A stretch of DNA of 64,000 nt from an uncultured Eubacteriales bacterium (GTDB taxonomy: Bacteria; Bacillota; Clostridia; Christensenellales; Aristaeellaceae): assembly GCA_902790495.1 (NCBI GenBank), contig CADASK010000008.1, positions 1 through 64,000 on the forward strand, in the 5' to 3' direction. Within the stretch, counting starts at the first letter, position 1. Each line of letters begins with the position of its first letter. Below are positions 4,123-63,288 of the stretch, in pieces. The translations under genes were made by a program, and so were the position numbers. Under the pieces are notes generated by a model that was not told where the DNA came from, searched no databases, and saw only the letters and a list, made by a program, of their open reading frames with translations.

Positions 4123-4182
4123 TTTCGCCGCCTGCGGGCGGCGACCAAAGGGCTTTGCGATCGCCCTTTGGAAACCTTCGCA
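4123..4182. repeat. Two-hairpin repeat, short form (copy 1)
   Basis: Hairpin 1 CGCCGCC-TGC-GGGCGGCG, hairpin 2 CCAAAGGGC-TTTGCGATC-GCCCTTTGG, ending in AAACCTTCGC. Lies just 3' of oppA. Confidence 0.85.
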
Positions 4183-4218
4183 GCCGCGCTTCTGGAAGTG
4201 GTTTACATGAAAACCTGA

Positions 4219-5982
4219 TTACTTCGCCACGGTGGTGTACATGAAGTACTTGTAGCCCAGGGGGTTCGCGAAGAAGCCCTGAACGGCGTCGTCGATCATG
4301 TAGATGTCGGTGTAGTAGTACAGGGGGGTGATGGCGCCGGTGCTCATCAGCAGATCCTCGGCGGCGTGCATCATGCCATAGCGGGCATCCTTGTCGGTGC
4401 AGGCCTTGACGGCGGCGATGGCGGCGTCATAGGTCTCGGCCCAGGTGCCGTTCTCCACCTTCAAGTCCACGCCGAAGGGGGTCAGGTCGATGGAGTAGAT
4501 CTTGGCGTCCGCGTGAGCGCCCTTGCCGAACTGGGAGTCGTTGTTGCCGGAGCCGGAGACCCACATATCCAGGAAGGAGATCGGGTCGTTGTAGTCGGCC
4601 AGCCAGCCGTTGCGGGCCACGGTGTAGTCGCCGTTCTTGCGGGTGTTCAGGAAGGTGTTCCACTCCTGGTTGGTCAGGTTCATGGTGATGCCCACGCCCG
4701 CCAGCACGCTCTGCAGGTACTCGCCGATCAGCTTGTGGCCGTCGTTGGTGTTGTAGAGGTACTCGATGGCCGGGAAGTTGGTGAACATGCCGGTGGCCTC
4801 GTCGAAGGTGTAGTACTTCTTCAGGGTCTCCATGGCGCTTTCCCAGTTGGCCTCATAGGCGCCCTCGGCCACGTTCCAGTAACCGGCGTACTCGTCGGAG
4901 GGGCCGGCCACCTCGTAGAACTGATGGATGCCGTCGGCGTCGGTCAGACCCAGGGCGACGAAGGAGGAGGCGGGCTGCTGGCCGGCCTGGCCGATCTCCG
5001 TCACGATGTAGTTGCGGTCATACAGCAGGCCGATGGCGTTGCGGATCTCGGCGCGGGCAGCCTCGGCCTCGTCGCCGGTCAGCTCACAGCCCTCGGGCAG
5101 GATCTCCGCGTTGACGTTCCAGGAGACATAGTAGGTGCCCATCTGGGAACCCACGAAGTACTCGGTGGGATACTCGACCTGCAGGGCCGCGATCTCAGCG
5201 GTGGGCACGTCGTCGATCATCAGCCAGTCGCCGTTGCGGAAGTTGGCCAGCATGTTGTTGGCATCGTCGGAGAGATAGAAGTTGATCTCGTCCATGGTGA
5301 TGCTGTCAGCCTGGAAATAGTTGGGGTTCTTGGTCAGGGTGATCACGGAGTTGTGCTCCCAGGCGGTCATGGTGTACGCGCCGTTGCACACATAGGTGGC
5401 CGGATCGGTCGCCCAGGCTTCGTTGGTCACGACGTCCTCGCGCACGGGCAGGAAGGTCGGGAAGGCCAGCAGCTCGTTCCAGTAGGAGACGTCGTTGTTC
5501 AGGGTCACGACCAGGGTCTTGTCGTCGGTGGCTTCCACGGCCATATCGTCCGGATAGCCCTTCACGACCTCAAACATATAGCCATAGTCGGCGCCCAGCG
5601 CAGTGGAGGCGGCGCGCTTCCAGGCATACTCGAAGTCCTTCGCGGTCAGATCCTTGCCGTCGGACCACTTCAGGCCGTCCACCAGGGTGTAGGTGTAGGT
5701 GGCGGTGCCGTCGTCGTTGATCACAGCGGCGGGCAGGTCGGTCGCCAGGTCAGGCACGATGTTCAGCGCGCCGTTGGCGTCCTGGGCCCACTTGCTCAGA
5801 CCGGAGAACAGGTGCACGATCATGGTCGCGCCGTCCACAGCGGAGTTCAGCGCGGGATCCAGGGTGTCGGGCTCGGAGGCGATGCAGACATTCAGGGATG
5901 TCTTTTCGGCCTCAGCGGACGCGAAGACGACGCTGGACAGGGCCAGGGTCAGCGCCAGCACGAGCGCAAGCAGCTTCTTCAT
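4219..5982 (-). CDS. oppA: Oligopeptide ABC transporter, solute-binding protein (OppA/SBP family 5)
   Basis: 587 aa. A signal peptide (MKKLLALVLALTLALSSVVF) ends in ASAEA, an AxA-type cleavage site with no lipobox cysteine. The mature part has family 5 features: LNVCIASEPDTLDPALNSAV near the N-terminus, then LVDGLKWSDGKDLTAKDFEY and NGWLADYNDPISFLDMWVSG. It would bind extracellular peptides for the OppBC channel. It is the last gene of the minus-strand oppBCDF-A set, after a 195-bp gap containing a two-hairpin repeat, and is followed by a terminator. GGAGGAAG precedes the ATG. The missing lipid anchor is unusual for a Gram-positive binding protein. The exact substrate (peptide or other small molecule) cannot be read from sequence. 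Confidence 0.92.
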   Translation of the reverse strand: MKKLLALVLALTLALSSVVFASAEAEKTSLNVCIASEPDTLDPALNSAVDGATMIVHLFSGLSKWAQDANGALNIVPDLATDLPAAVINDDGTATYTYTLVDGLKWSDGKDLTAKDFEYAWKRAASTALGADYGYMFEVVKGYPDDMAVEATDDKTLVVTLNNDVSYWNELLAFPTFLPVREDVVTNEAWATDPATYVCNGAYTMTAWEHNSVITLTKNPNYFQADSITMDEINFYLSDDANNMLANFRNGDWLMIDDVPTAEIAALQVEYPTEYFVGSQMGTYYVSWNVNAEILPEGCELTGDEAEAARAEIRNAIGLLYDRNYIVTEIGQAGQQPASSFVALGLTDADGIHQFYEVAGPSDEYAGYWNVAEGAYEANWESAMETLKKYYTFDEATGMFTNFPAIEYLYNTNDGHKLIGEYLQSVLAGVGITMNLTNQEWNTFLNTRKNGDYTVARNGWLADYNDPISFLDMWVSGSGNNDSQFGKGAHADAKIYSIDLTPFGVDLKVENGTWAETYDAAIAAVKACTDKDARYGMMHAAEDLLMSTGAITPLYYYTDIYMIDDAVQGFFANPLGYKYFMYTTVAK

Positions 5983-6085
5983 ACAGTTCTTCCTCCTTAA
6001 AAAGTAGAGTATATTTCATCATGCCGGATTCCCCGGCAGAATGAACCCGAAACCAATTTCTTTCTTCAATCATGTACGCAGGCCC

Positions 6086-6144
6086 CGAAGGTTTCCAAAG
6101 GGCGATCGGAAAGCCCTTTGGTCGCCGCCCGCAGGCGGCGAAAC
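6086..6144. repeat. Two-hairpin repeat, short form (copy 2)
   Basis: Inverted orientation to copy 1: GAAGGTTT-CCAAAGGGC-GATCGGAAA-GCCCTTTGG then CGCCGCC-CGCA-GGCGGCG. Sits between oppF and oppA inside the operon. Confidence 0.85.
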
Positions 6145-6177
6145 TTCCTGCGGCAGCAAAGGCATATCGGCTGCCTC

Positions 6178-10534: not shown

Positions 10535-10540
10535 GTCATT

Positions 10541-12287: not shown

Positions 12288-15200
12288 ATGAAAAGAATCC
12301 CAGCCATCGCATTGGCCCTGCTGATGCTGCTTCAAATCCTCCCTGCCGCAGCGGAGACGCCCGCCGCCTCCGGGTGGCAGCAGGTGGTTTCCGACTCCGT
12401 CACGCTCTCCAAGAGCACGACGCCCTTTGACTACAGCGATGCGGGGGCTTATGTCCGTGTGTCCATCTCCGGCACCTACCGGAAGAACCAGACGCCCGCC
12501 GCGGGACGGAATACCGCCATCGGCGGCGCGGTGCTGGAGGCCTGGACCGTCGGCAACATCAAAAAGCAGACTGCCCTGACCCTCACCGCCGTGGTCACCG
12601 CCCTGCCGGAGGACGGCGCGCTGGACGCCTGGACCGTCATGAACGGCGCCCTGGGCGCCCGCGTCGGCACAGATCTGGCCGTGGGCGACACGGTGCAGTT
12701 CGATCTCACCTCCAAGGGCCCCGAGGGCATCGCCCTGGTGCGCGCGGAGGTGACCCCGGTGGAGCTGGCCGACATCGACGCCCTCTGGGCCAACGAGCAC
12801 CTCTACCTCACCGGCAAGCTGCCCGCCAAGGGCATCGTGGACGCCCAGCCCGTCGCCGTGGACATTGAGGGCGAGGACGTGCTCTCCGCCTACGACATCA
12901 GGATCTACGGCAACGCCAGCCAGCAGCGAAAGGGCAAGACCTGGCAGCCCGCCGGCAAGAAGGTGCGGGTGCACTTCCACGGCGAGAACTTCGCCGACAA
13001 GTCCCTGCACGTCTACCACCTGCAGGACGTCCAGGCCGAGCCGGAGTTTGTGGACATCGTGCAGGCCGAGGACGGCTGGGTCTCCTTCGACGCGGCGGGC
13101 TTCTCAATCTACGCAGTCGGAGAGAAGCAGGACGACGTCAACAAGCGCGTCGGCTACCGCTTCTGGTACAACGACGGCAACGAGAACATCCTGCTGAGCA
13201 CCCAGTACTTCCGCCACAAGGACGTGCATCCCTCCGACGGCAGCATACCGATGCAGCTGTATCAGCCCACCATCCCGGGCATGGATGCCGCCACCTGGAA
13301 CCGCATCTTCAAGGGCTGGAGCAAGACCGCTGACATCCAGGACAGCACACCGCTCCACAGCATCACCGACCTGAACGCGGAGCTGAACGGTCTGGCGGAC
13401 ACCGGCTATAACGAAACCGTTCAGGATCTCTACGCAAGCCTGCAGAACGTCTACTACGTCACCTACGTGGACATCAACCCCAACAACGTCCTGCTGGTTG
13501 AGCTGGTACCCAAGGAGGCCGCCGGCGACACCACCTTCACCGTGAAAACGGCAGCGGAGCTCCGGCCCACCATCGACAGCGATACGGAGCTGCTCGGCTG
13601 GCATCTGTTGGAGGATCCGGAGCATCACTATACGCCCGGCCAGGCAGGCGTGGTTCTCGACAAGGACATGACGCTGTATCCCTCCATCGAGGGCGGCCAC
13701 TGGCTGGTCTTCGACGATAACGACCTGGTGGAGAACGAGGACGGCGAGATGGTCAGTGGCGGTGCGAGCTTCACCCCGCCTGCCTTCTACCTGAACCGGG
13801 CCACGGAAGCGCCGGCGGATCCCACCTGGGACGGCTACGAGTTCGGCGGCTGGTACACGGACAGAGCGTGCACCACCCCCTTCGTATTTGGCAATGAGCT
13901 GCCTGTCGACACCACCGTCTACGCCAAGTGGACGCCCGCGGCCAGCGCCTACCGCGTCATCATCTGGAAGCAGCGCAGCACCGATGCCGTCGGCCTGCCG
14001 GACAGCCAGAAGAACTATGACTACGTCGACAGCTACCTGTATGAGGATGTGGTCACCGGCCAGACCGTCACGCTGCCGAACAGCTACAAGAACATCTACG
14101 GCACGAACGGCACCTCCAACGACACGGACAAGAGCTATTTCGTCTACAACGCCGGCAAGACTGACCAGCAGACCATCGTCAAGGCCAACGGCAGCTCCGT
14201 GCTGAATGTCTACTACGACCGGAAGCCCGTGACGCTGAACTTCTATATCTGGGATTACGGCTATACCCCCACCACCGCCAACAGCGGGACACAGTACGGC
14301 CTGCTGGAGGATGGAAGCTATGTGCAGCTGACGCGCAACGGGAACACTTGGACATATGTTTCCGGGACAGAAACTGTGTATAGCGTGTCTTCCTCAAAAA
14401 GCAGCGGCTATTACTATATACCAGATGGTCATGGTGGATATGAAGAAATCTATCTGTACCGAAACAATAACAGGTGGTACCGTAACAGAACAGGTTTCAT
14501 TATTTACAATTACAGCGACGAATACACCGGCAATGTCTACACGCGCACCGAAAGCAATATCAACAGCACCTATGACGGGACGCGCTATACACGCAACAAT
14601 AGCCGTTCCTGGCGTATCTACAAGACCTTCACTGGCCTCTATGGTTCATCCTTGGAGGAAAACGAATACACCTGGCCCACGGAATACAACTGGTATGAAA
14701 ACGGTGGAAACAACGGCTCAACCAGCGGAACTCGAACAACTTTCATGTCCTCGTTCCTGCCAACTGATAATCAGCTCACCGTAAACTTCTATGGTTCCGA
14801 CCCCTCTACAAGCGGAAACAGAGTGAATTTCCACACGCAAAAGCTCGATGGAACCTATCAACTGGAAGATTACATCTTTACAGGCAGTGGCAATCCTACT
14901 TTCAGTATCTCAGATAAGTATAACGGGTACCACGCTTCAGAGTATTCTACCGACGGCGGTAACACTTGGACCAAGCTGTATGAGAAAGACTCCAGTGGCT
15001 ATTATGCCAGAAGCATTTCATACCGTACGCTTGACATCCGCTTCGACCGCAACGAATACACCCTGACCTTCTACACCAACAACGGCTCCAACCAGCTGAT
15101 CGAGAACATCCTCAAGTACGAGGCGCCCCTTTCCGGCTACAGCGGCCAGACCCCTGGCCAGCGGACGGGCCACTACTTCCTCGGCTGGTTCGCCGACCCG

Positions 15201-17471
15201 GGCTGCACGCAGCCCTTCGACTTCAACCAGACCATGCCGGATCACAACATCGCCGTGTATGGCAAGTGGAAGATGGAGCGCTACCGCGTGGTGATCGAGC
15301 CGGGCGCGGACAACGTGTACATGGGCAGCCAGGCCAGAAGCTTCCGCCTGGACTACGACGAGCGCATCGACGGCGGCCTGCTGACCACCGCCACCCGGGC
15401 AGGCTATCTCCTCGACGGCTGGTACACCGACCCGAGCTTCAGCCCCGAGAGCCGCTTCCTCTTCACCAACCCGGTCAACGCCAACACCCGCGGCATGGAC
15501 ATGACCTACCAGACCGGCGCGAACTGGGCCGCCGTGCGCGCGGCCTACGGCGACGATGCCCCGGATCGCGACAACGTGCGCGGCATCCTGCACCTGTACG
15601 CCAAGTGGATTCCCGACCCCAACTCCCAGGGCTACAACGTCATCTACGACGCGGGCGACGCGGCCCTCCGGGACGACCTGGGCAACCTGCTGACCACCGT
15701 CCCCATCGACACTACCATGTACGCCTTCTCGGACAGCGCTACCGCCATCGCCCGGGAAGCGCCCGCCAACTACAACGACCTGTACACCTTCAGCCACTGG
15801 GAGGCCACCACGGAGGACGGCAGAACCCTGGTGATTCAGCCCAGCGAAAACATCCCGCTGAGCCAGCTGACCGCCGTGGAAACCGTCATCGACGAGGCGA
15901 CCGGCGAGCCGCTGCGCAAGACCGTCAAGCTGACCGCCATCTACACCACCGCCGCGGAGGGCCGGCTGACCCACATCACCTACGACGGCAACGGCTTCAC
16001 CGAGCACCGGTATGTCGGCGGCGACGTCGACGTCCACGGCAGGACCATGGACGGCACCGAGCGCGAGAGCGTCACCCTCAGCAAGGAGGTCAACGAGACC
16101 ATCATTCTGCCCGGCGCGGATTACTTCTACCTGGACGGCTACAGGATGGTGGGCTGGTCCTTCGACGAGGGCGAGACCCAGACCAAACACTTTGACCTGG
16201 AGCAGGATGTCGCGGCGGACAACCTCGACTCTGACAGGCCGACCGACCAGAACACGCGCCGGAACACCCTCTACGCCATGTGGGAGCCGAAGACCTACAT
16301 CGCGACCATCCGCCAGGTGGTGGAGAGCGGCGTCCCGGTCACGAGCTTCGACTACGGCTACGCCACCGGTGTGGAGAATCAGATCGACAGCGCCTCGGCC
16401 GCAGCCCAGACGCTGACCGGCAATACCTCCTTCCAGGTCAGCGATCAGCTGCACTACTACACCCTCCACGGCGACGTGGTGGAGGTCACGCCGCCTCCGA
16501 TCCCGGCGGATGCCCCCTATGACGTGCGCGTCCACGCCATCGTCACCAGGGACGACGGCACCAGAGAGATCCTGCAGCCCACCTCGGCGGGCCTGTATCA
16601 GATCTTAGGCGACGTGGAGATCATCTACACCTACTCCCCGAAGGTGCTCGTGCAGCTGCGCAAGCGCGACGCCGCGAAGCACAGCACCGTGCTGACGGAT
16701 TCCGTGTTCGTGATGACGCCCGTGGAGTTCAGCACCGAGACCCAGCGCTACGAGATCGCGGGCGACGGCAAGACGGTCGCCATCGACGCGGACACGAAGC
16801 AGCTGCGGCTCCAGGAGGGCACCTATCAGCTGACGGAGACCACGCCCCCGGATGGCTACGCGGCGATCCGGGAAAGCCTCTACCTGACCATCCACAGAGA
16901 TGAGAGCCTGCGCTTTGAGCTCTTCGACGCCAGCGGCACCGCCGTCACCGCCAGCGTGGCGGAGCTGGACACAGCCACCGGCCGCATCCTCACCCTGTAC
17001 GACCGCCCGATCCGCACTGTCACGGTCGTCAAGCAGGTGACTGGCGGCTTCGGCGACCGCAGCCGCTCCTTCGACTTCACCGTGCGCGCCACGGAGGCGA
17101 ACGACTACGTCACCGGCACAGGCCTGACCCTGCAGAGCGACGGCTCCTGGGGCTTCCGCCTGAAACACGGGGAGTCCATCGACATCACTGTGCTCCGCGG
17201 CGACACCCTGACCCTCACCGAGAAGACCGACGCGGACGCCATCTACTACACAACGGCCTGGAGCGCCGGCGCGAGCAGCGACCCGCGAACCGCCGTGCTC
17301 ACGGTCAGCGACGACCAGACTGTCACCGTCACCAACCACCGCGATCCCGTCTCCCCCACCGGCGTGGTGCTGCGCGTCGCGCCTTACGCCCTGATGCTCG
17401 GCGCGGGCGTGGCCCTGCTCATCCTGGGCCTGCGCCATCGCAAGCGCCGCCGGGAGGACGACGAAGCATAA
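12288..17471 (+). CDS. Giant sortase-anchored surface protein with InlB-type repeats (1,727 aa)
   Basis: Signal peptide 1-22 (MKRIPAIALALLMLLQILPA). Residues about 25-285 form a module shared with the next gene (KNQTPAAGR, LPEDGALDAWTV, ANEHLYLTGKLPAKGIVDAQ, QQRKGKTWQPA). Several InlB B-repeat/Flg_new units follow, for example GYEFGGWYTDRACTTPFVFG with VYAKW, GHYFLGWFADPGCTQPFDFN with VYGKW, and GYLLDGWYTDPSFSPESRF. Residues about 660-920 are rich in Tyr, Asn and Ser. From about 1450 there are Cna-B/SpaA-like domains (YQLTETTPPDGYAAI; VVKQVTGGFGDRS). The end is SPTGVVLRVAPYALMLGAGV, a hydrophobic stretch and RHRKRRRED: a wall-sorting signal with a non-LPxTG motif. Likely adhesin or fibre subunit. 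Codon composition falls sharply near 14.3-15.0 kb. Confidence 0.85.
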   Translation: MKRIPAIALALLMLLQILPAAAETPAASGWQQVVSDSVTLSKSTTPFDYSDAGAYVRVSISGTYRKNQTPAAGRNTAIGGAVLEAWTVGNIKKQTALTLTAVVTALPEDGALDAWTVMNGALGARVGTDLAVGDTVQFDLTSKGPEGIALVRAEVTPVELADIDALWANEHLYLTGKLPAKGIVDAQPVAVDIEGEDVLSAYDIRIYGNASQQRKGKTWQPAGKKVRVHFHGENFADKSLHVYHLQDVQAEPEFVDIVQAEDGWVSFDAAGFSIYAVGEKQDDVNKRVGYRFWYNDGNENILLSTQYFRHKDVHPSDGSIPMQLYQPTIPGMDAATWNRIFKGWSKTADIQDSTPLHSITDLNAELNGLADTGYNETVQDLYASLQNVYYVTYVDINPNNVLLVELVPKEAAGDTTFTVKTAAELRPTIDSDTELLGWHLLEDPEHHYTPGQAGVVLDKDMTLYPSIEGGHWLVFDDNDLVENEDGEMVSGGASFTPPAFYLNRATEAPADPTWDGYEFGGWYTDRACTTPFVFGNELPVDTTVYAKWTPAASAYRVIIWKQRSTDAVGLPDSQKNYDYVDSYLYEDVVTGQTVTLPNSYKNIYGTNGTSNDTDKSYFVYNAGKTDQQTIVKANGSSVLNVYYDRKPVTLNFYIWDYGYTPTTANSGTQYGLLEDGSYVQLTRNGNTWTYVSGTETVYSVSSSKSSGYYYIPDGHGGYEEIYLYRNNNRWYRNRTGFIIYNYSDEYTGNVYTRTESNINSTYDGTRYTRNNSRSWRIYKTFTGLYGSSLEENEYTWPTEYNWYENGGNNGSTSGTRTTFMSSFLPTDNQLTVNFYGSDPSTSGNRVNFHTQKLDGTYQLEDYIFTGSGNPTFSISDKYNGYHASEYSTDGGNTWTKLYEKDSSGYYARSISYRTLDIRFDRNEYTLTFYTNNGSNQLIENILKYEAPLSGYSGQTPGQRTGHYFLGWFADPGCTQPFDFNQTMPDHNIAVYGKWKMERYRVVIEPGADNVYMGSQARSFRLDYDERIDGGLLTTATRAGYLLDGWYTDPSFSPESRFLFTNPVNANTRGMDMTYQTGANWAAVRAAYGDDAPDRDNVRGILHLYAKWIPDPNSQGYNVIYDAGDAALRDDLGNLLTTVPIDTTMYAFSDSATAIAREAPANYNDLYTFSHWEATTEDGRTLVIQPSENIPLSQLTAVETVIDEATGEPLRKTVKLTAIYTTAAEGRLTHITYDGNGFTEHRYVGGDVDVHGRTMDGTERESVTLSKEVNETIILPGADYFYLDGYRMVGWSFDEGETQTKHFDLEQDVAADNLDSDRPTDQNTRRNTLYAMWEPKTYIATIRQVVESGVPVTSFDYGYATGVENQIDSASAAAQTLTGNTSFQVSDQLHYYTLHGDVVEVTPPPIPADAPYDVRVHAIVTRDDGTREILQPTSAGLYQILGDVEIIYTYSPKVLVQLRKRDAAKHSTVLTDSVFVMTPVEFSTETQRYEIAGDGKTVAIDADTKQLRLQEGTYQLTETTPPDGYAAIRESLYLTIHRDESLRFELFDASGTAVTASVAELDTATGRILTLYDRPIRTVTVVKQVTGGFGDRSRSFDFTVRATEANDYVTGTGLTLQSDGSWGFRLKHGESIDITVLRGDTLTLTEKTDADAIYYTTAWSAGASSDPRTAVLTVSDDQTVTVTNHRDPVSPTGVVLRVAPYALMLGAGVALLILGLRHRKRRREDDEA
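14290..15030 (+). other. Low-GC coding patch inside the giant surface protein
   Basis: Within the open frame, third positions switch from mostly G/C to frequent A/T (for example GGAACACTTGGACATATG), encoding Tyr/Asn/Ser-rich sequence. The sharp change at both ends suggests a recombined or diversifying segment. Confidence 0.5.
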
Positions 17472-17570
17472 CCCCCGTTCCTGACCCCCGCGTGGAGACA
17501 CCCATGACCTTTCGCTTACCGGCCCGCACGCGTTGGTCTCATGCTGCGTGCGGACGGACAGGAGGCGGCT

Positions 17571-20500
17571 ATGAAACGATTCTTCGCCTTGATATTGACC
17601 CTGGTGATGCTGCTCCAGGCGCTGCCTGCGCAGGCTGCGCCGAAGGACAAGAGCGTCACCTCGGAATGGCAGCAGGTGGTCTCGGAATCCGTGAAGATCA
17701 CCAAGGAGAACGCGGATTTCGTCTATGAGGACGAGGGAGCCTACGCCTCCGTGTCCGTCTACGGCAACCACAAGAAGAACCAGCAGCCCTCCGCCGGCAG
17801 AGCCACCGGCCTCGGCGACGGTTCCGTGCTGGAGGCCTGGTCGGTGCGCGGCATCAAGAATAAGACCGAGCTGATCCTCTCCGCCCGGATCACCGCCCTG
17901 CCCGAGGAGGGCGCGCTGGACGCCTGGACCGTCGTGGACGGCCATTTAGGCGAGCGCGTGGGCGCGGACCTCAGCGTGGGCGATGAGATCGAGTTCAGCC
18001 TGAGCATGAAAGGCGCGCAGGGCCTGGCCCTGGTCGGCGCCCAGGAAGCCCCGGTGGAGCTGGTGGAGGATGGCGCGCTCTACGCCAACGAGCATCTCTA
18101 CCTCACCGGCAAGGTGCCCGGCAACGGCGTCATCGACGTGCAGCCCGTCACCGTCTCCATCGACGGCGAGGAGGTGCTCGCCGCCTACGACATCAAGATC
18201 TACGCCAACGCCAACCAGCAGCGCAAGGGCAAGACCTGGAAGCCCGCCGACAAAAAGGTGCAGGTGCACTTCTACGACGAAGCCTTCGGCTCCGAGGAGC
18301 TGAACGTGTTCCACCTGCAGGACGAGCAGGCCGAGCCGGAGTACATCGACACCGTGCAGGCGGAGGAGGGCTGGATCGCCTTCGAGGCGGAGAGCTTCTC
18401 CGTCTACGCCGTGACCCGCACCATCGAGAAGATCTTCACCGCCGGCGACGGCCAGACCTACCTGATCACCCTGACCTACGACAGCGATGCGGGCATCCCC
18501 GACGACGCCGACCTGGGCGTGACGGAGCTGACCGGCGACGCGGCGGCGGACTACCTTGTGCGCACCGCCATCGCCATGGACGCCGGCGGCTTCGGCTACG
18601 GCCGCGTGTTCGACATCTCCATCCTGGACAGCGCCGGCGCGGAGCTGCAGCCCCTGACGCCCGTGTCCGTCTCCGTGTCCCTGCTGGACACCACGAACAC
18701 GGCCCAGCCCTTCTACGTGATGCACTTCGCCGGCGAGGACGAGACCCCCGAGCCCGTCGCCGCCACCGCCGAGGGCACCACCGTCACCTTCAGCGCGAGC
18801 GGTTTCTCCGCCTACGCCATTGTCCAGGGACCGGAGCCGCTCGCAGACGAATGGCAGAAGATCACGTCCGTCGAGGATCTGATCGCCCACGCGTCGGAAG
18901 GCGTGTACATCGGTCACAAAGACGGGTATTACATGACGGACGGCATCACCAATATCAAGCCCGACCGCACCGGCATCACAAAGACCAAGCCCGCGCAGGT
19001 CCAGCCTGCCAGCAAAGCTGCCATCTACTACTTTGAACCCGCAGGCGACAGCGGGAATCAGTTCAAAGTTTACTGCGGCGAAGGCGCGGCAAAAAAGTAC
19101 GTCACACAGCCGAGCGATAACAGCCTGAATTTCACCGCGGACGCTGGCAGCGCCACCGTATTCACGGTTGAGTCTTTCCCGAACGAAGCGAACACCTTCA
19201 GCTTGAAGGGCAAGAACGGATACTACTGGAACATGCAGGGCGGCGCGAACGGCGCCAGCATCGCCTGCTACAACGTCGCCAACGACGTGAACGCCCGTTT
19301 CCAGTTCCAGTACCTCCCAGTTACCACCGATCCCTACGGTCTGGACGGACAGACCCACGGCCTGATCAACTGGAACGGCGGCCTTGCCGGCAAAGCCATG
19401 ATGGCCAGCGCGTCGGGCGATCACCTGGCCAGCAAGGCCCTGACGGTGCTGACGCACGAGGATGACACAAACAATAAGCTGTTCGTCCCCAACGACACCG
19501 ACATCACCCTGTGGACCTTCGAGTGGGTCAGCCGGGACCAGTACTATCTGAAAGCGAACGACCAGTACCTCCAGATCGACGCGAACGGCCTCTCGCTCGT
19601 CTCCGTGCCGACGGAAGCGTGCAGGATCCAGGTCATCCCCGGTACGGGCATCCACGCCGGACAGATCTGCCTCGCGCAGAAGGGCACCATGCTCACCTAC
19701 AGCGGCAGCATCGATACGGGCTTCGGCACGGGCGGCGATGCCGGAACGGAATGGCTGTACATGGCAGACCTCTCCAACCTGACCAACGAATACTTCCGGG
19801 TCTACTCCGCCACCAAGGCAGGCGCTTCCGATCCGAGAGTGCAGGACGGTGAAAAGATCATCGTCTACACCCGCGTGTGGGATGAGACCCTGGGCCAGTA
19901 CAGCTTCTACGCCGTCGGCCCGAACGGCGAGCTCGTGCCGTGCTATGAGAGCGGCGACGATATCCAGTGGCTGGGCCACAGCCTGAACGATATGCTCTGG
20001 ACGCTCGTGGAGTATGCCGATGAGAACACTGGCCTGCCCAACGGCTACTATGAACTGTACAACCCTTATTCCGGCAAATTCATGGCACCCCAGGTAGCCG
20101 GCGGGCAGGTCCTGTCCGATACCCCGATCGGCATCAACCTGAACGGGCGCACAGGCGGCGAGTACTATACCAACATCATCGCCTGGGACGACAAGCACTA
20201 CGCCTACGTCTGCCAGAAGGCTGACAAGCAGAGCGGGCAGATCGTCTCCATCCCCTTCGTGGATGCCGCTGAAACCCCTGAAGCCGTGGACTTCGCCTTC
20301 GCCATCGTGCAGGACATTCCGGTCGATGACACGCTGCATACCGTTCCGACACTGGATCACGAGCAGTACGGCATCACCATGAAACTGCTGGACTTCGCCA
20401 ACCGCAAGATGATGAGCGATTTCCTCGGCAATGACGTTGGCACCGCCACACCCGTCCTCCAGCCGGGGCTGCTGTCCACCAACCTGGGAGAAGACGGCTA

Positions 20501-23500
20501 TCCCACCGCCAAGGGCGGTTCCCTGCGCAGCCTCTTCAATCAGGCGTCGAAGCAGAGCCAGGTGAACCACCTCTTCATCCAGAGCACCTATACCAGCAGC
20601 GGCTACTACACCTTCGACAGCACACAGAACTTCGCGAGCCTGCAGCCCGACAACAACTTCCTGGTCTACCAGGAGCTTGGCTCCTATGACAGCGGCGGCA
20701 ACAAGCCGACCCTGAAGCACGGCCAGTTCTTCCCCTACAACAAGATCGAGCCGGGCAAGTTCGCCACGACCAACGGCAAAAATCTCTACACCAACACCGC
20801 GCAGCTCCTGCCGGACAGCGACCCCCGGAAGAACGAACAGCTGTATCTGGTCAAAGACGTCAACTGCCATTTCGCCGTGGAATTGGAGGCCGGCTTCACA
20901 CAGACGCCCAGCGGCAAGGATGCCTGGGGCCATGATATCATCTACGAGTTTGCCGGTGACGACGACTTCTGGCTCTATGTGGACGGAGAACTGGTCATCG
21001 ACCTGGGCGGCATCCACAGCGCAGTGGGCGGCAGCGTCAACTACCGCACCGGCGAAGTGGTGGTCAACGGACACCATACCACGCTGAAAGACCTCTTCTA
21101 CAGCAATTACATCAATCGCGGCCACTCACCTGCCGAAGCGCAGGCTTATGTGGATGCGAAATTTGAGCAAAACATCGAGGGCAACTGGGTCTTCACTGAC
21201 AACTCCAGACACACCATGCGCATCTTCTACATGGAGCGCGGCGCCGGCGCGTCCAACCTGAAAATGAAGTTCAACCTCGCCTCCGTCAGGCCGGGCACCG
21301 TGCAGCTGAGCAAGGAACTGCTCGGTGTGGACAGCTCCGACTCCATCAAGGCCGAATTCGCCTATCAGCTCTATTACACCGAAGACGGGAACCACTTTGA
21401 GCTGGAAGACTTCGGCCCCAACAAGCCTGTGAAGGTCCGGTATAAGGACACGACCCGTTACCTCACTTCCACCTCCTATACGGTCGGCGGTGTCACCTAC
21501 CCCAATGTGCTCCTCCTCAAGCCCGGCGAAACCGTCGAGATCGACTTCGGCCGAGATCTGGATTACAGGATCGTGGAGTGCGGCGTGAACACGGATGTGT
21601 ACAGCGAAGTCCTCGTGAACGGTTCAGCGGTCCAGGGTACGGACGTGAACAACGGCAAGTGGCAGGATTTTGCGGCCGCTGCTTACAAAACCAAAGACGT
21701 CAACACCGTCCGCTACCAGAACAGGGTCAACCCCGAGGCCCTGAAGAACCTGTCCTTCACGAAAAAGCTTTACAAGGAAGACGGTCTCACCGAGCTGAAA
21801 TACGGCAACGGCGAGGATGAGGACGACGCATCCTTCACGTTCCGCCTCTACCTGGGCACCGAGTCCGAAGATCCCGACGGACTGCCGCCCGCCAGCATGT
21901 ATACCTACCACGTCAAAAACCCGGCAGGCAAGTACTGCAGGTGGGACGATGCCGCGGAAGCGTTCATCGCAACGGACTACAGCGACTACAGCGCGATAGG
22001 CGCTTCCCAAAAAAAGTCCATCAGCTTCACGACTTCCACTTACGGCACCATCTCAAAGATCCCCGCCGGCTACACCGTTGAGGTGAGGAACCTGCTCGCA
22101 GGCACCCAGTACAAGGTGGTGGAACGCCCCGGTGAAGTTCCGGACGGCTACTCGTTCCAGAAGTATGTGGTCAACGGCACGGTTTCCGCCAACAGCGCTG
22201 AGACCGGTGTGGGCGGCTCAGTCGTCTCCGGCGAACCTGACCCCCATGTGGATATATGCAACCTGCGCGGTTTCGGCCTCCGCATGAACAAGGCCTGGTC
22301 GGACGCCGGCTACATGGACAGCCGCGATCCCACCTACTACGCCCTCTTCACCAGCCCCGACAGTTCCGACGCCCTGGTGCCCGGCTCCGTGCGGCAGCTA
22401 CAGTCGGTCATCCATCCGCAATCCCTCTACTGGTATTACCTGAACCTGCCGATCAGCGGCACACAGTTCAGGGACTACTACATCCGTGAGGTCACCATCA
22501 GCAACGCTTCCCCCTCTGTCAATTCCGAGGGCACCGTGCTTGATCCCGGCACCGTCACCATGATTGCGGACGGCGGAACGGTGACGCTCTCCGGACGCCA
22601 GAAGGGCGAGTCCGCAGGCGGCACATTCGATTACACAGCCTCCTACGGGAACCGCACCTTCGAGGCGAGATCCAATGTGCAGGTCCAGGAGATCACGAAC
22701 AGCCGCCCCGGCATCCAGCTGAAGAAGACCGACTGGAACGGCAGCCCGCTTGCCAACGCGGCCTTCACGCTGAAGGACGCCCAGGGCACGGAGATCGGCT
22801 CCTTCACCTCAAACTCCGCGGGTCTTATCACTGAAGCCCACCTGGCGGGCGGCGTGACCTACACCCTGACCGAGACCCGGGCGCCCACGAACTACGAAGG
22901 CCTGCCCTCTTCCATCAACCTGGTCTGGGAGAACAATACGCTGACCGTCGTGACCGATGCGGACGATTCCTACTACACCGTCGAACAGGCCACGTCCACC
23001 TCCCCGGCCACCCTGACCGTCAAGAACCGCTCCAAGTCCTTCCAGGTCCGGAAAATCGACGGCGATTCCGGCGCCCCTCTCCCCGGCGTGCATTTCGAAC
23101 TGCATAAGGAAAAGACAGTCAACAATGTCACCAGCATGGACCTGTTCCCGCTGGCCGGCTATGTCGACCTGGTATCGGACGCGAACGGCCTGATCCCCAG
23201 GCTGGACAACACCCTGCCAGCCGGCACCTACGAGCTGTGGGAGAAGGAACCGCCAGCCGGCTATCAGCCCCTCGAACCCGGTCCCGGACATATCGGCTTC
23301 ACCGTCAGCGCGGCCGGCGTGGTCACCCTGAACGCACCGCTGATCGACGGCGTGACGCTCACTTCTGATGCGCAGGGCGGCGCGGCAAGCTACGAGATCC
23401 TCATCCGTAACTACGCCTGCACCGACCTCACCATCACCAAGCTGGTCACCGGCGGCTTCGGCGACCGCAGCCCCTCCAACGCGTTCACCTTCACCTTGGA

Positions 23501-23912
23501 GAGCGTCGCGGGCGAAGCTGAAGGAACATCCTACACATGGACAAGGACCGCAAACGGCCAGACCGTGACAGGCACGATCGCCGCTGGCGGCACCTTCCAG
23601 CTCGCGCACGGCCAGTCCATCTCCATCCGCCTGCCGCTTGGCAAGGCCATCACCCTCTCGGAAGCGCACGGCATGTACACCGCTTCTTGGCAGATGGACA
23701 GCGAGAGCACCGCGACAGAAGGCGGCAGCAGGACCATCACCCTCACCGGGAACGCCGCGCTCACCGTGACCAACAACCTGGAGCCTGTATCCCCCACCGG
23801 CGTGGTGCTTCGCGTCGCACCCTACGCCCTGATGCTCGGCGCCGGCGTGGTGCTGCTGATTCTCGGCCTGCGCCGCCGTAAGCGCCGCAGCAAGGACGAC
23901 GACGAGGAGTAA
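17571..23912 (+). CDS. Giant sortase-anchored protein with fibro-slime/PA14-like and SpaA domains (2,113 aa)
   Basis: The ATG at 17571 is chosen because AGGAGG lies five bases upstream and a signal peptide follows (MKRFFALILTLVMLLQALPA); an earlier ATG at 17541 adds ten polar residues. Residues about 25-275 match the N-module of the preceding protein. About 425-600 resembles a carbohydrate-binding-like beta domain (HKDGYYMTDGI, KGKNGYYWNM). About 930-1235 is a fibro-slime/PA14-like domain: IYEFAGDDDFWLYVDGELVI, DLGGIHSAVGG, NWVFTDNSRHTMRIFYMERG. About 1240-2070 carries Cna-B/SpaA domains (IQLKKTDWNGSPLANAAFTL; FQVRKIDGDSGAPLPGVHFE). The end, SPTGVVLRVAPYALMLGAGV plus RRRKRR, nearly equals that of the previous protein. 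Probable tip or backbone adhesin of a sortase-built structure; a terminator follows. Confidence 0.85.
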   Translation: MKRFFALILTLVMLLQALPAQAAPKDKSVTSEWQQVVSESVKITKENADFVYEDEGAYASVSVYGNHKKNQQPSAGRATGLGDGSVLEAWSVRGIKNKTELILSARITALPEEGALDAWTVVDGHLGERVGADLSVGDEIEFSLSMKGAQGLALVGAQEAPVELVEDGALYANEHLYLTGKVPGNGVIDVQPVTVSIDGEEVLAAYDIKIYANANQQRKGKTWKPADKKVQVHFYDEAFGSEELNVFHLQDEQAEPEYIDTVQAEEGWIAFEAESFSVYAVTRTIEKIFTAGDGQTYLITLTYDSDAGIPDDADLGVTELTGDAAADYLVRTAIAMDAGGFGYGRVFDISILDSAGAELQPLTPVSVSVSLLDTTNTAQPFYVMHFAGEDETPEPVAATAEGTTVTFSASGFSAYAIVQGPEPLADEWQKITSVEDLIAHASEGVYIGHKDGYYMTDGITNIKPDRTGITKTKPAQVQPASKAAIYYFEPAGDSGNQFKVYCGEGAAKKYVTQPSDNSLNFTADAGSATVFTVESFPNEANTFSLKGKNGYYWNMQGGANGASIACYNVANDVNARFQFQYLPVTTDPYGLDGQTHGLINWNGGLAGKAMMASASGDHLASKALTVLTHEDDTNNKLFVPNDTDITLWTFEWVSRDQYYLKANDQYLQIDANGLSLVSVPTEACRIQVIPGTGIHAGQICLAQKGTMLTYSGSIDTGFGTGGDAGTEWLYMADLSNLTNEYFRVYSATKAGASDPRVQDGEKIIVYTRVWDETLGQYSFYAVGPNGELVPCYESGDDIQWLGHSLNDMLWTLVEYADENTGLPNGYYELYNPYSGKFMAPQVAGGQVLSDTPIGINLNGRTGGEYYTNIIAWDDKHYAYVCQKADKQSGQIVSIPFVDAAETPEAVDFAFAIVQDIPVDDTLHTVPTLDHEQYGITMKLLDFANRKMMSDFLGNDVGTATPVLQPGLLSTNLGEDGYPTAKGGSLRSLFNQASKQSQVNHLFIQSTYTSSGYYTFDSTQNFASLQPDNNFLVYQELGSYDSGGNKPTLKHGQFFPYNKIEPGKFATTNGKNLYTNTAQLLPDSDPRKNEQLYLVKDVNCHFAVELEAGFTQTPSGKDAWGHDIIYEFAGDDDFWLYVDGELVIDLGGIHSAVGGSVNYRTGEVVVNGHHTTLKDLFYSNYINRGHSPAEAQAYVDAKFEQNIEGNWVFTDNSRHTMRIFYMERGAGASNLKMKFNLASVRPGTVQLSKELLGVDSSDSIKAEFAYQLYYTEDGNHFELEDFGPNKPVKVRYKDTTRYLTSTSYTVGGVTYPNVLLLKPGETVEIDFGRDLDYRIVECGVNTDVYSEVLVNGSAVQGTDVNNGKWQDFAAAAYKTKDVNTVRYQNRVNPEALKNLSFTKKLYKEDGLTELKYGNGEDEDDASFTFRLYLGTESEDPDGLPPASMYTYHVKNPAGKYCRWDDAAEAFIATDYSDYSAIGASQKKSISFTTSTYGTISKIPAGYTVEVRNLLAGTQYKVVERPGEVPDGYSFQKYVVNGTVSANSAETGVGGSVVSGEPDPHVDICNLRGFGLRMNKAWSDAGYMDSRDPTYYALFTSPDSSDALVPGSVRQLQSVIHPQSLYWYYLNLPISGTQFRDYYIREVTISNASPSVNSEGTVLDPGTVTMIADGGTVTLSGRQKGESAGGTFDYTASYGNRTFEARSNVQVQEITNSRPGIQLKKTDWNGSPLANAAFTLKDAQGTEIGSFTSNSAGLITEAHLAGGVTYTLTETRAPTNYEGLPSSINLVWENNTLTVVTDADDSYYTVEQATSTSPATLTVKNRSKSFQVRKIDGDSGAPLPGVHFELHKEKTVNNVTSMDLFPLAGYVDLVSDANGLIPRLDNTLPAGTYELWEKEPPAGYQPLEPGPGHIGFTVSAAGVVTLNAPLIDGVTLTSDAQGGAASYEILIRNYACTDLTITKLVTGGFGDRSPSNAFTFTLESVAGEAEGTSYTWTRTANGQTVTGTIAAGGTFQLAHGQSISIRLPLGKAITLSEAHGMYTASWQMDSESTATEGGSRTITLTGNAALTVTNNLEPVSPTGVVLRVAPYALMLGAGVVLLILGLRRRKRRSKDDDEE

Positions 23913-23990: not shown

Positions 23991-24094
23991 GCTGCGAAGG
24001 GGTGGAGGGGGCTCGGAGCGCCCGGAAAACGCCATGTTATGGCGTTTTCAGCGGAGAGCGGGCGGCAGCCCCGGACCGATCGCAAAGCCCCCAA
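23991..24094. repeat. Two-hairpin repeat, long form (copy 3), overlapping the murG start
   Basis: Outer arms GGGGGCT/AGCCCCC enclose GATCGCAAA and a nested hairpin GAAAACGCCAT-GTT-ATGGCGTTTTC. The in-frame ATG of murG is inside the nested stem. Confidence 0.85.
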
Positions 24095-25169
24095 GCAACC
24101 AACCGGCAAGCGCATCGTCCTCACCGGCGGCGGCACCTGGGGCCACGTGACCCCGCACCTGGCGCTGATCCCCCACCTGATCAAGGCGGGCTACGATATC
24201 CACTACATCGGCACCGAACACGGCCTGGAGGTGGACAAGCTGCGCTCCATCCCGGAGATCACCTACCACGCGGTGAAGACCGGCAAGCTGCGCCGCTACC
24301 ACTCCTGGCAGAACTTCATCGACCCCTTCCGCGTCATCGCGGGCGCGTTTCAGTCCGCGCGGCTGATGGGCAAGCTGAAGCCGGACGTGGTGTTCAGCAA
24401 GGGCGGCTTCGTGGCCGTGCCGGTGGTGTTCGGCGCGTGGCTACACCGCGTGCCCGTGCTCTGCCACGAGAGCGACCTGACCCCCGGCCTGGCCAACAAG
24501 CTCTGCAAGCCCTTCGCCAGGCGGATGGTGACCACCTTCCCCGAGTGCGCGCAGGCCCTGGGCGCCAAGGCGGAGTGCGTCGGCACGCCCCTGCGGCCCG
24601 AGCTGTTCTCCGGCGAGCGGGCGAAGGGGCTGAAGCTCTTCGGCTTCACGGGAGAAAAGCCTGTGCTGCTGATGATGGGCGGCTCCTCCGGCGCGCAGGC
24701 GGTCAACAAGGGCCTGCGGGACGCCCTGCCGGAGCTGCTGAAGACCTTCGATGTCGCCCACCTGTGCGGCAAGGGCAACCTGGACGCGGCCCTGGACGGC
24801 ACGCCCGGCTACACGCAGATCGAGTTCCTGGACGCGGAGCTGCCCGACGCCCTCGCCGCGGCGGATCTCGTGCTCTCCCGCGCCGGCAGCAACGCGCTGA
24901 TGGAGTTCCAGGCCCTGGACAAGCCCATGCTGCTGGTGCCCTACCCCAAGGGCGCGAGCCGCGGCGACCAGATTCTCAACGCCCAGAGCCTCGAAAAGCG
25001 CGGCCTCTGCCGCGTCCTCATGCAGGAGGATATGACCGCCGAGAGCCTGACCCAGGCCCTGCTGCAGACCTGGCGCGACCGCGACGCCCTGAAGGCCGCC
25101 GTCAAAAAAGCGCCCCCCGCCAACGGCACGAAGCGCGTGCTGGAATTGATTGAGGAGATACAGAAATAA
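24039..25169 (+). CDS. murG: UDP-GlcNAc: undecaprenyl-PP-MurNAc-pentapeptide GlcNAc transferase MurG
   Basis: 376 aa as called. MurG adds GlcNAc to lipid I on the cytoplasmic membrane face, giving lipid II for peptidoglycan. Seen: the glycine loop LTGGGTWGHVTPHLALIPHL, FSKGGFVAVPVVFGAW, HESDLTPGLANKLCKPFA, MMGGSSGAQAVNKGLRDALP, CGKGNLD, LSRAGSNALMEFQALDKPML and YPKGASRGDQILNA, matching the Bacillus-type MurG. The conserved part begins about residue 24 (GKRIVLTGGG). No ATG, GTG or TTG lies between there and the ATG at 24039, which is inside a two-hairpin repeat; the next in-frame option is TTG at 23976. No good ribosome site or dedicated promoter is visible, and a terminator stands just upstream, so expression is puzzling. 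Function secure, start insecure. Confidence 0.9.
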   Translation: MAFSAESGRQPRTDRKAPKQPTGKRIVLTGGGTWGHVTPHLALIPHLIKAGYDIHYIGTEHGLEVDKLRSIPEITYHAVKTGKLRRYHSWQNFIDPFRVIAGAFQSARLMGKLKPDVVFSKGGFVAVPVVFGAWLHRVPVLCHESDLTPGLANKLCKPFARRMVTTFPECAQALGAKAECVGTPLRPELFSGERAKGLKLFGFTGEKPVLLMMGGSSGAQAVNKGLRDALPELLKTFDVAHLCGKGNLDAALDGTPGYTQIEFLDAELPDALAAADLVLSRAGSNALMEFQALDKPMLLVPYPKGASRGDQILNAQSLEKRGLCRVLMQEDMTAESLTQALLQTWRDRDALKAAVKKAPPANGTKRVLELIEEIQK

Positions 25170-27362: not shown

Positions 27363-27408
27363 GAATGGTTCTTCCTCTCTGGAGGTTGTGCTTCGGCGGG
27401 GTTCCGCG

Positions 27409-27510
27409 CCTGCGGGCGCGGGTCAGGGGCTTTGCGATCGGTCCGGGGCTGCCGCCCGCTCTCCGCTGAAAACTCCATAACATGGAGTTTTCCGGGCGCT
27501 CCGAGCCCCA
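27409..27510. repeat. Two-hairpin repeat, long form (copy 4)
   Basis: Hairpin 1 CCGCGCC-TGC-GGGCGCGG; outer arms GGGGCT/AGCCCC; nested hairpin GAAAACTCCAT-AAC-ATGGAGTTTTC. Between the enolase terminator and the GNAT-phosphatase gene. Confidence 0.85.
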
Positions 27511-27525
27511 AAGAACCTATGACTT

Positions 27526-30754: not shown

Positions 30755-30788
30755 CCCATGAGCGTTCCATAAAACTGTTTTCGATCAG

Positions 30789-32567: not shown

Positions 32568-32633
32568 AGGCATTTCCTTCCCTGTTACTTTTAACTATCG
32601 AAATGCACTGAGAAAGTCGGCGAGCGAAGGTTT

Positions 32634-32684: not shown

Positions 32685-32720
32685 CGCTGAGAGATATCAG
32701 CTGACATGGCCATAAGCTTT

Positions 32721-37817: not shown

Positions 37818-37882
37818 AGGGTTCCGCGCCTGCGGGCGCGGGCAAAGGGCTTTGCGATCGCCCTTTGCAAACCTTCGCCCGC
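37818..37882. repeat. Two-hairpin repeat, short form (copy 8)
   Basis: CCGCGCC-TGC-GGGCGCGG and GCAAAGGGC-TTTGCGATC-GCCCTTTGC. Confidence 0.85.
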
Positions 37883-38170: not shown

Positions 38171-38235
38171 GCTGCGAAGGGTTGCAAGGGGCGATCGCAA
38201 AGCCCCTTGCCCGCGCCCGCAGGCGCGGAATCCCT
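38171..38235. repeat. Two-hairpin repeat, short form (copy 9)
   Basis: GCAAGGGGC-GATCGCAAA-GCCCCTTGC and CCGCGCC-CGCA-GGCGCGG. Confidence 0.85.
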
Positions 38236-45230: not shown

Positions 45231-45290
45231 TGCGAAGGGTTGTCAGGGGCGACCGCAAAGCCCCTGACCCGCGCCCGCAGGCGCGGAACT
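45231..45290. repeat. Two-hairpin repeat, short form (copy 11)
   Basis: GTCAGGGGC-GACCGCAAA-GCCCCTGAC and CCGCGCC-CGCA-GGCGCGG. Confidence 0.85.
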
Positions 45291-45322
45291 CCTGCTAACC
45301 GATTTGCGAAAGGAGAACAGCC

Positions 45323-45904: not shown

Positions 45905-45933
45905 CTATTGTTTTTTCTGTCTCAGACAGCGGA

Positions 45934-45996
45934 GATTCCGCGCCTGCGGGCGCGGGCAAGGGGCTTTGCGATCGCCCCTTGCAACCCTTCGCCGCC
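45934..45996. repeat. Two-hairpin repeat, short form (copy 12)
   Basis: CCGCGCC-TGC-GGGCGCGG and GCAAGGGGC-TTTGCGATC-GCCCCTTGC. Confidence 0.85.
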
Positions 45997-47550: not shown

Positions 47551-47622
47551 GTTCTGTTCACCTCCTGTCAGGGCATTGTTTTTATACTTTTTCAATGAAG
47601 GGTACATCTTTTTTGTGAGAAG

Positions 47623-47679
47623 GTTTCGGCCTTCGGATGGCCCGAGGGCTTTGCGATCGGTCCGGGGACCCCTTCGCCC
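47623..47679. repeat. Two-hairpin repeat, deleted variant (copy 13)
   Basis: TTTCGGCC…GGCCCGA, then GGGCTTTGCGATCGGTCCGGGG running straight into ACCCCTTCGCC: looks like a long form with its nested hairpin removed. Confidence 0.75.
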
Positions 47680-58685: not shown

Positions 58686-58749
58686 GGAGATTCCGCGCCT
58701 GCGGGCGCGGGCAGGGGGCTTTGCGATCGCCCCCTGCACCCCTTCGCCT
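58686..58749. repeat. Two-hairpin repeat, short form (copy 14)
   Basis: CCGCGCC-TGC-GGGCGCGG and GCAGGGGGC-TTTGCGATC-GCCCCCTGC. Confidence 0.85.
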
Positions 58750-59898: not shown

Positions 59899-60029
59899 GG
59901 GGTTCAGCGCCTGCGGGCGCGGGCAAAGGGCTTTGCGATCGGTCCGGGGCTGCAACCCGTTCTCCGCTGAAAACGCCATAACATGGCGTTTTCCGGGCGC
60001 TCCGAACCCTTTGCAAACCTTCGCCCGCC
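59899..60029. repeat. Two-hairpin repeat, long form (copy 15)
   Basis: Outer arms GCAAAGGG/CCCTTTGC; nested hairpin GAAAACGCCAT-AAC-ATGGCGTTTTC; conserved TTTGCGATC. Confidence 0.85.
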
Positions 60030-60213: not shown

Positions 60214-60316
60214 CAAGACCGTTCCCCCGGCTCGCACGCCGAACGTGGCTACGAGCATCTCTATCTATCGATACACACGGGCCGCAGCGGAATCTTGGCT
60301 CTCCCTCTGGGGCGAC

Positions 60317-60373
60317 GAACGCCCGGAAAACAGTCCAGTGGACTGTTTTCAGTGAGTCGTAAGCGGCAGCGGC
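60317..60373. repeat. Partial two-hairpin repeat: nested hairpin only (copy 16)
   Basis: GAAAACAGTCC-AGT-GGACTGTTTTC with the flanks GAACGCCCG and AGTGAGTCG as in copy 10, but the outer arms are missing. Followed by a second-family hairpin GTCAGCC-GTGA-GGCTGAC at 60379-60397. Confidence 0.75.
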
Positions 60374-63181: not shown

Positions 63182-63222
63182 GTTACTTCTTCATCTAAAG
63201 AGTTTGCAATAGTAAGAGCGCA

Positions 63223-63288
63223 AGCGAAGGGTTGTCAGGGGCGATCGCAAAGCCCCTGACCCGCGCCCGCAGGCGCGGAACCCTTGCT
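63223..63288. repeat. Two-hairpin repeat, short form (copy 17), between nrdD and nrdG
   Basis: GTCAGGGGC-GATCGCAAA-GCCCCTGAC and CCGCGCC-CGCA-GGCGCGG, inside the presumed operon. Confidence 0.85.

Follow-up and report, generated by a model that had tools for sequence, protein, structure and literature searches.

Intergenic two-hairpin repeats with predicted loop-to-tail pairing in an uncultured Eubacteriales genome and its relatives

Repeat copies in the window and their helices

The window analysed here is a 64,000-nt stretch of DNA (positions 1 to 64,000, forward strand, of contig CADASK010000008.1, assembly GCA_902790495.1) from an uncultured Eubacteriales bacterium of the Aristaeellaceae. 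It is part of contig C8 of a metagenome-assembled genome (MAG) of 2,466,513 bases in 78 contigs (completeness 94.5%, contamination 4.5%), below called the source genome. The window carries a short dispersed repeat with a core unit of about 55–64 nt. The unit consists of a foot (RRGRTT), hairpin 1 with arms of usually 6–8 bp around TGCG, an abutting hairpin 2 of mostly 9 bp (7–10) around a 9-nt loop, a linker of 3–6 nt and the tail TTCG[C/G]. Loop and tail are complementary, linker length follows stem length, and the repeat is tentatively interpreted as a mobile DNA element resembling repetitive extragenic palindromes (REPs).

A sequence-only reading of the window had listed 17 copies sharing one two-hairpin layout. 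Covariance model R1, built on 24 aligned copies, gave 14 full-length matches inside the window, all at E <= 1.5e-6. Together with the genome-wide core counts below, these bear out a dispersed two-hairpin family on both strands, mainly between genes, at the listed places. The common layout held in part. Read singly, 13 of the 17 places had both hairpins (nine short complete copies, four long ones), whereas two long copies (listed at 23991 and 40449) lacked hairpin 1, one (47623) was collapsed and one (60317) held the inner hairpin only. The hairpin-2 loop, described as constant, was TTTGCGATC at 13, TTTGCGGTC at two and TTTCCGATC at one of the 16 places with a loop, and the hairpin-1 loop, given as TGC/GCA, was mostly TGCG. 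In the following lines, R1 marks a match to the model.

4119–4181, plus strand: short copy; hairpin 1 TCGCCGCC/TGCG, hairpin 2 CCAAAGGGC, loop TTTGCGATC, linker AAACC, tail TTCGC; arms 9/9 paired; R1, E 1e-19
6085–6147, minus strand: short copy; arms as in the 4119 copy, loop TTTCCGATC, tail TTCGG (compensatory loop/tail pair); R1
23994–24095, minus strand: long copy without hairpin 1; hairpin-2 arms 6/9 paired; overlaps a predicted open reading frame (ORF) start; ends inferred from loop and tail positions
27398–27513, plus strand: long copy; inner hairpin TCCATAACATGGA; hairpin-2 arms 6/9 paired; tail TTCGC lost; R1, E 4e-10; right end inferred
30787–30910, plus strand: long copy; inner hairpin AGTCCACTGGACT; R1 at 30787–30842 and 30868–30910
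31584–31708, plus strand: long copy; inner hairpin GCCATAACATGGC, loop TTTGCGGTC; R1; right end inferred
32624–32686, minus strand: short copy; single hairpin-2 mismatch; R1
37818–37878, plus strand: short copy; hairpin 2 GCAAAGGGC; R1
38174–38234, minus strand: short copy; hairpin 2 GCAAGGGGC; R1
40452–40550, minus strand: long copy without hairpin 1; variant insert; hairpin-2 arms 9/9 paired; ends inferred
45232–45292, minus strand: short copy; hairpin 2 GTCAGGGGC, loop TTTGCGGTC; R1
45932–45992, plus strand: short copy; hairpin 2 GCAAGGGGC; R1
47620–47677, plus strand: collapsed derivative; arms degraded, loop and tail retained; R1, E 1.5e-6
58687–58747, plus strand: short copy; hairpin 2 GCAGGGGGC; missing in the orthologous gap of relative G005; R1
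59899–60024, plus strand: long copy; inner hairpin GCCATAACATGGC; R1; right end inferred
60309–60371, minus strand: inner hairpin of the long form only; the TTTGCGATC module is missing; not a core-element copy
63224–63284, minus strand: short copy; hairpin 2 GTCAGGGGC; G005 has a copy at the orthologous site; R1

Exact matches in the source genome numbered 230 for one core pattern and 328 for the 14-mer GGGCTTTGCGATCG, against 0 for reversed control patterns. Chance is thereby excluded, and the repeat family is real. A two-hairpin pattern matched 262 times. Conservation starts on the 5' side at the purine-rich foot of hairpin 1 (consensus from 78 copies of the source genome). On the 3' side, strong conservation stops after TTCG[C/G] and is followed by weak GC and then by a weak T bias 9–11 nt past the tail. 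An intrinsic terminator was rejected, as hairpin 2 is followed by linker and TTCG[C/G] and not by a T run.

The three helices were compared in 24 gapless copies, in which 480/480 cells were paired. Cells with a double change numbered 48 (14.7 in shuffles) and the covariation score was 0.309 (0.126 in shuffles); each value was reached by 0/500 shuffles. With slid partners, at most three pairs were changed on both sides, against seven observed, and at most 50% of cells were paired. Since the copies are related, the changes represent few events seen many times. Of the covariation claimed in the sequence-only reading, the part borne by three of five measures stood; it is confined to differences between a few amplified subfamilies, and two measures lay within shuffles. 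On the refuting condition set at the outset, complete pairing and the excess of two-sided pairs over slid partners stand beside those two measures within shuffles, and relatedness is still in the data.

Copies L051:12417, L051:16022, L052:5249, L058:12909 and L043:8844 combine halves from different arm classes, with the switch inside the hairpin-2 loop. Two further helices were considered and dropped. An outer stem between the purine foot and the linker, which would form a three-way junction, is visible in some copies; by eye the foot does not track the linker between classes. An outer inverted repeat in the flanks, suggested by copy L047:3404, showed no excess over shuffled pairings in 64 copies.

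Loop-to-tail pairing, linker length and inserted hairpins

The hairpin-2 loop TTT-GCGA-TC has its complement in the tail T-TCGC, and a subfamily with loop TTT-CCGA-TC has the tail TTCGG. This compensatory pair is seen in several arm backgrounds. Window copies 4119–4181 and 6085–6147 have identical hairpin-1 and hairpin-2 arms and differ in loop and tail by exactly this pair. Loop, tail and linker statistics were taken from 251 copies in 28 genomes. The tail was sought as TTCG plus one free base or as TTC[C/T]G, and copies with fewer than six Watson-Crick stem pairs were left out, a filter that removes some mixed copies such as L043:8844 (GCG loop, tail G). Loop TTT-GCG occurred with tail C in 109/112 copies and loop TTT-CCG with tail G in 130/135; four copies had other loops. 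In a viral set of 32 copies on IMG/VR contigs, independent of the discovery of the rule, loop and tail agreed in 32/32. Part of these contigs had been retrieved via a pattern requiring TTCG[C/G], in which the loop base and the last tail base are free of each other. The predicted pseudoknot has four pairs: two are invariant, a third shows two-sided covariation and in the remaining one a single side varies (A-U to G-U).

Linker length equalled stem length minus 4 in 232/251 copies. By stem length, the rule held for 7 bp with 3 nt in 19/24, for 8 bp with 4 nt in 20/24, for 9 bp with 5 nt in 190/193 and for 10 bp with 6 nt in 3/6 copies, and in 0/4 of the 6- and 11-bp calls. Its weight lies mostly on 9-bp stems, the 7-, 8- and 10-bp stems together contributing 42/54. 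In the viral set it held in 27/32 copies (10-bp stems 0/2). Some exceptions are copies whose called stem is lengthened by chance pairing. Linker bases also track the 5' arm in parallel register: among arm types seen at least twice, with the first linker base excluded, G stood opposite C in 46/46 cases and A opposite A (8) or T (2). This register offers a lead towards a third strand running along the stem; a classical parallel triplex would accommodate C over G-C and T over A-T, but not A over A-T. On IMG/VR contig L287 (IMGVR_UViG_3300031867_000329), six of seven copies consist of hairpin 2 and tail without hairpin 1, which suggests that the pseudoknot part can stand alone.

Template switching offers another origin for matched arms: quasi-palindromes corrected during replication would yield them by mutation without selection. 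Near-perfect Watson-Crick arms with little G-T are what templated correction would produce, and the two covariation measures within shuffles also suit it. It does not account for loop/tail covariation or for the coupling of linker to stem length, since loop and tail do not make up the arms of a single palindrome, and it leaves the loops kept across genera unexplained. We consider this origin improbable.

Long forms carry an insert in the hairpin-2 loop. At L055:12017 the source genome has the short form, and its nearest relative among the genomes searched, G005, has the same site with a 65-nt insert after CGATC. This insert forms a hairpin of its own, in which changes in one inner arm are matched in the other, and in G035, from another genus, a different hairpin is inserted at the identical loop position. 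An insert at this position leaves stem, loop-to-tail pairing and linker intact. The loop/tail match was retained in 37/42 long forms, with four unreadable and one changed. In G002, two copies (L264 near 3817 and 12214) are instead interrupted in the hairpin-2 5' arm by another hairpin, GTCCGCAGCCGGAC. The loop-to-tail pairing, the linker rule, the long and short forms and the family-wide distribution given below go beyond the sequence-only description.

Genomic placement and the folding strand

For placement analysis, 460 kb of the source genome were used, with 88 copies carrying exact CTTTGCGATCG and coding sequences (CDS) taken from our own ORF script. Only 2/88 copies overlapped a predicted CDS, though the coding share was 73%. 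Between two genes lay 83 copies (64 in tandem, 13 in convergent and 6 in divergent gaps); three more had no gene called on one side. Divergent gaps held fewer copies than their share of the length would give (p 0.007). Copies in tandem gaps were sense in 27 cases and antisense in 37. The initial suggestion of a REP- or MITE-like element (MITE, miniature inverted-repeat transposable element) in intergenic gaps of both strands, with arms changing together, is supported. An mRNA 3'-end element, suggested alongside it, is disfavoured by the tandem-gap orientations.

The same orientations count against a structured RNA more generally, in which a transcript would fold as hairpin 1 plus an H-type pseudoknot, block exonucleases or bind a protein, and spread as a portable RNA part. 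Several features fit such an RNA: the pseudoknot linker scales with the stem, its bases track the 5' arm in parallel as RNA-pseudoknot triples might, loop variant TTTGCGGTC retains tail TTCGC and so has a G-U pair on the plus strand, and the hairpin-1 loop is often C(UGCG)G, which we take to be a UNCG-type tetraloop. H-type RNA pseudoknots share the topology of stem 1, loop, stem 2 and a linker along stem 1. They differ from the present repeat, which has hundreds of dispersed copies in both orientations and recurrent arm types without G-U. In some genera the hairpin-1 loop is not UNCG.

RNA families usually accumulate G-U pairs. Here, the 15 arm types seen at least twice had 131/131 Watson-Crick pairs (one other pair per stem was allowed), and single-copy stems, taken from copies with at least 70% Watson-Crick stems, had 1982/2008, with 10 G-T and 7 A-C pairs, which were treated alike; both scripts favour well-paired stems. 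As G-T is about as rare as A-C and recurrent arms are all Watson-Crick, a DNA hairpin fits better than RNA. With single-stranded DNA energies, both hairpins were in the minimum fold in 2/2 copies on the plus strand and in 1/2 on the minus strand. With RNA energies, the one short copy (37818) and the one long copy tried both took a different minimum fold on the plus strand. The use of both orientations, the stem pairing and the single-stranded DNA folds make a DNA element the better reading, and a structured RNA is judged unlikely.

Rfam gave 0 families at the gathering cut-off in the window, and nothing relevant on one long copy and two further 20-kb stretches. The sub-threshold match of lowest E on one copy was the CPEB3 ribozyme (minus strand, E 0.015, 17 bits with 35 needed). 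Ribozymes resembling that of hepatitis delta virus, such as CPEB3, have P2 and P3 between the two P1 strands. This candidate was rejected: only 9 nt lie between the arms, which leaves no room for P2 and P3, and the middle of the model was skipped in the alignment.

Filled and empty gaps were compared with G005, one contig of which is letter-identical to CAMNLM010000125.1 (uncultured Clostridia bacterium). Of 27 comparable gaps, 10 were filled in the source genome only, one in G005 only, two in both and 14 in neither; 10 of the 12 comparable filled gaps of the source genome were thus empty in G005. Another comparison of the two genomes gave a further shared copy, L048:10956. Among the IMG/VR contigs in a BLAST listing, which did not amount to a full test, no strain-level pair differing in presence or absence was seen. 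At three shared sites (L055:12017, window 63224–63284 and L048:10956), 60-nt steps around the element were 97–100% identical between the two genomes, while the flanking genes were mostly 70–95% identical; recombination, transfer or a binning mix-up could account for this.

Small size, many copies and sites differing between species would also suit a MITE, that is, a non-autonomous double-stranded DNA transposon moved in trans by a DDE transposase. Terminal inverted repeats, the hallmark sought for this class, were not found between the flanks of 64 copies (mean score 7.67 against 7.75 in shuffled pairings). No target duplication was seen in the comparison with G005, in which gaps were too diverged for a clean test. 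A MITE appears a poor candidate, and a single-stranded DNA element the likelier one.

Distribution, transposase search and relation to known repeats

R1 was scanned over 12 genomes of the genus at E <= 0.01, with about 150 candidates scored per genome, so that the largest counts are lower bounds. Matches were found in 11 genomes and none in G007. Counts were at least 151 in G000, at least 150 in both G010 and G002, 101 in G005, 74 in G001, 31 in G006 and 2–8 in five others. A family sample of 120 genomes from 50 genera, searched at E <= 0.001, gave matches in 24 genomes and 13 genera. These became 22 genomes and 11 genera after removal of G360 and G350, whose weak matches (L200 and L201, respectively) by eye had neither loop nor tail. 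The covariance-model search of genome and relatives proposed at the outset thus recovered the family in 11/12 genus genomes and 11/50 family genera. In an order sample, 7/297 genomes matched, including the source genome, and one lay outside the bacterial family; all matches of this genome were on one contig (G234:C25) and may reflect contamination or transfer. Close DnaG relatives in the named collection were uncultured Clostridia and Clostridiales MAGs, including ones from sheep rumen and roe deer duodenum. Some relatives have tandem arrays of elements spaced about 97–181 nt, and G002 has inverted pairs 181–185 nt apart (L264 3635/3817; L265 5437/5618 and 7442/7627).

A REP-associated tyrosine transposase, proposed as a further check, was sought as Y1_Tnp (PF01797), the only enzyme family searched, and was found neither in the source genome nor in 10 of the 11 genomes with at least 40 R1 matches (G000, G001, G002, G005, G010, G330, G035, G025, G373 and G019, all incomplete MAGs). 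The remaining copy-rich genome, G351, had one match. Within the genus, the Y1 domain occurred in 3/12 genomes and in none of the five richest in copies. Missing from most copy-rich genomes and present in half of the lesser carriers, Y1 is not tied to the element, and a Y1 transposase was rejected as an unlikely general mobiliser.

The repeat, its three helices, the coupling of linker and stem, the loop inserts, the intergenic placement in both orientations and the sites differing between species are all apparent in the sequences compared. Our interpretation, held with about as much doubt as confidence, is that the repeats are short, REP-like, mobile but non-autonomous DNA elements that form a DNA hairpin with a loop-to-tail pseudoknot. 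The single-stranded element would fold, and the hairpin-2 loop TTT-SCGA-TC would pair with the tail and close an H-type pseudoknot. The linker would run along the stem of hairpin 2, which would account for its length and, in part, its sequence following the stem. Four bases of the hairpin-2 loop could read the 3' edge of the element itself. A protein may recognise the folded single DNA strand and read the tail through the loop, much as a guide lets the transposases of REPs and IS200/IS605 read a tetranucleotide, and this reading might drive copying. A bolder version, which we regard as speculative and rather unlikely, would be a separate class of mobile elements defined by the pseudoknot, in which the loop of the right hairpin reads its own 3' edge, the linker lies in register as a third strand and a non-Y1 single-strand enzyme moves the element.

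The proposed REP-like element shares with REPs, REPINs (paired REPs) and BIMEs (bacterial interspersed mosaic elements) of the GTAG and CGTC types short hairpin repeats in more than 100 copies, intergenic placement, inverted pairs, arrays and compensated arm changes; the tandem arrays and the inverted pairs of G002 are the likeness to BIMEs, and those pairs also resemble REP doublets. As expected of a high-copy intergenic palindromic repeat, 328 exact cores were counted and 2/88 copies overlapped CDS. The element differs in its foot consensus RRGRTT and tail TTCG[C/G], with neither GTAG nor CGTC at the hairpin foot, and in its two abutting hairpins, the 9-nt loop complementary to its own tail and the stem-scaled linker. 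By layout it resembles a REP; the GTAG or CGTC foot that marks REP membership was not found, nor, in most copy-rich genomes, was the transposase. An excerpt of PMC3733652 reports CGTC REPs without a dedicated transposase that end in a short unpaired tail.

According to the excerpted text of PMC6006769, REP and IS200/IS605 ends form hairpins, and the cleavage tetranucleotide is read by a guide tetranucleotide via base interactions including base triples. IS200/IS605 elements and their miniature derivatives resemble the present one in having subterminal hairpins at their two ends and a tetranucleotide that a guide recognises through base pairing (PMC6006769, same excerpt). In that account the guide is situated on the 5' side of the hairpin foot, whereas the complementary four bases here lie in the hairpin loop; a further difference is the Y1_Tnp pattern given above. 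Among the open-licence papers listed in literature searches, no title or abstract opening names a repeat with a loop-to-tail pseudoknot, which is not proof of absence, and the main texts of PMC3733652 and PMC12306157 do not use the word pseudoknot. The loop-to-tail pseudoknot predicted here is an addition to the REP-like layout, in an element spread over a bacterial family.

Several observations weigh against this interpretation. Pairs changed on both sides numbered 7 against 5.8 in shuffles (reached by 97/500) and further pair types 12 against 12.8 (reached by 465/500); these are the two of five measures within shuffles. Support for the pseudoknot rests, in the alignments, on one truly covarying pair of four, eight copies with loop TTTCCGCTC have lost the fourth pair, and mixed copies are among those dropped before the loop/tail count for having fewer than six Watson-Crick stem pairs. 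Pseudoknots are commoner in known RNAs; the pseudoknot itself and the G-U pair of loop variant TTTGCGGTC count against a DNA element. In single other genera, conserved flanks reach past the core, so the moving unit may be longer.

Further points concern movement. Copies lay on the strand of the local gene majority in 30 cases and against it in 47, with no majority for 11/88 (p 0.07), which gives no clear strand bias of the kind expected of lagging-strand insertion. Between the source genome and G005, which are too diverged in gaps, no clean empty site or target duplication was definable, and no transposition was observed. Filled gaps of the source genome had a median of 205.5 nt and empty gaps of G005 one of 106 nt, an excess larger than the element, and in 2/10 pairs the gap of the source genome was shorter than the empty one. 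Y1_Tnp was present in 6 of 12 searched carriers with fewer than 40 R1 matches (G006, G009, G284, G356, G361 and G211, with an internal stop in G356 and G361). The two covariation measures within shuffles and the Y1 matches in half of the carriers poorer in copies lower the confidence in a REP-like mobile DNA element and in the bolder version, and the structured RNA and template switching gain slightly.

Where the mobiliser of REP-type repeats is known, it comes from one enzyme family. A large family-wide group with another architecture, mostly without Y1 in its richest genomes, would point to an unknown spreading route for small DNA hairpins. The loop/tail and linker rules provide simple tests, and together they form a descriptor with which the family can readily be sought in other genomes or masked when gut metagenomes are assembled.

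Two minor observations concern the surroundings of the copies. Between the elements lie copies of a second repeat family with the layout GGCTCCCCTATGAGGGGAGCTGTCATCGCG...ACTGAGGGG (window between 60025 and 60310; L029; L052 near 5130–5200). Window positions 12288–17471 and 17541–23912 hold adjoining very long ORFs of 1727 and 2123 amino acids, which have a common 300-nt stretch that is 74% alike.

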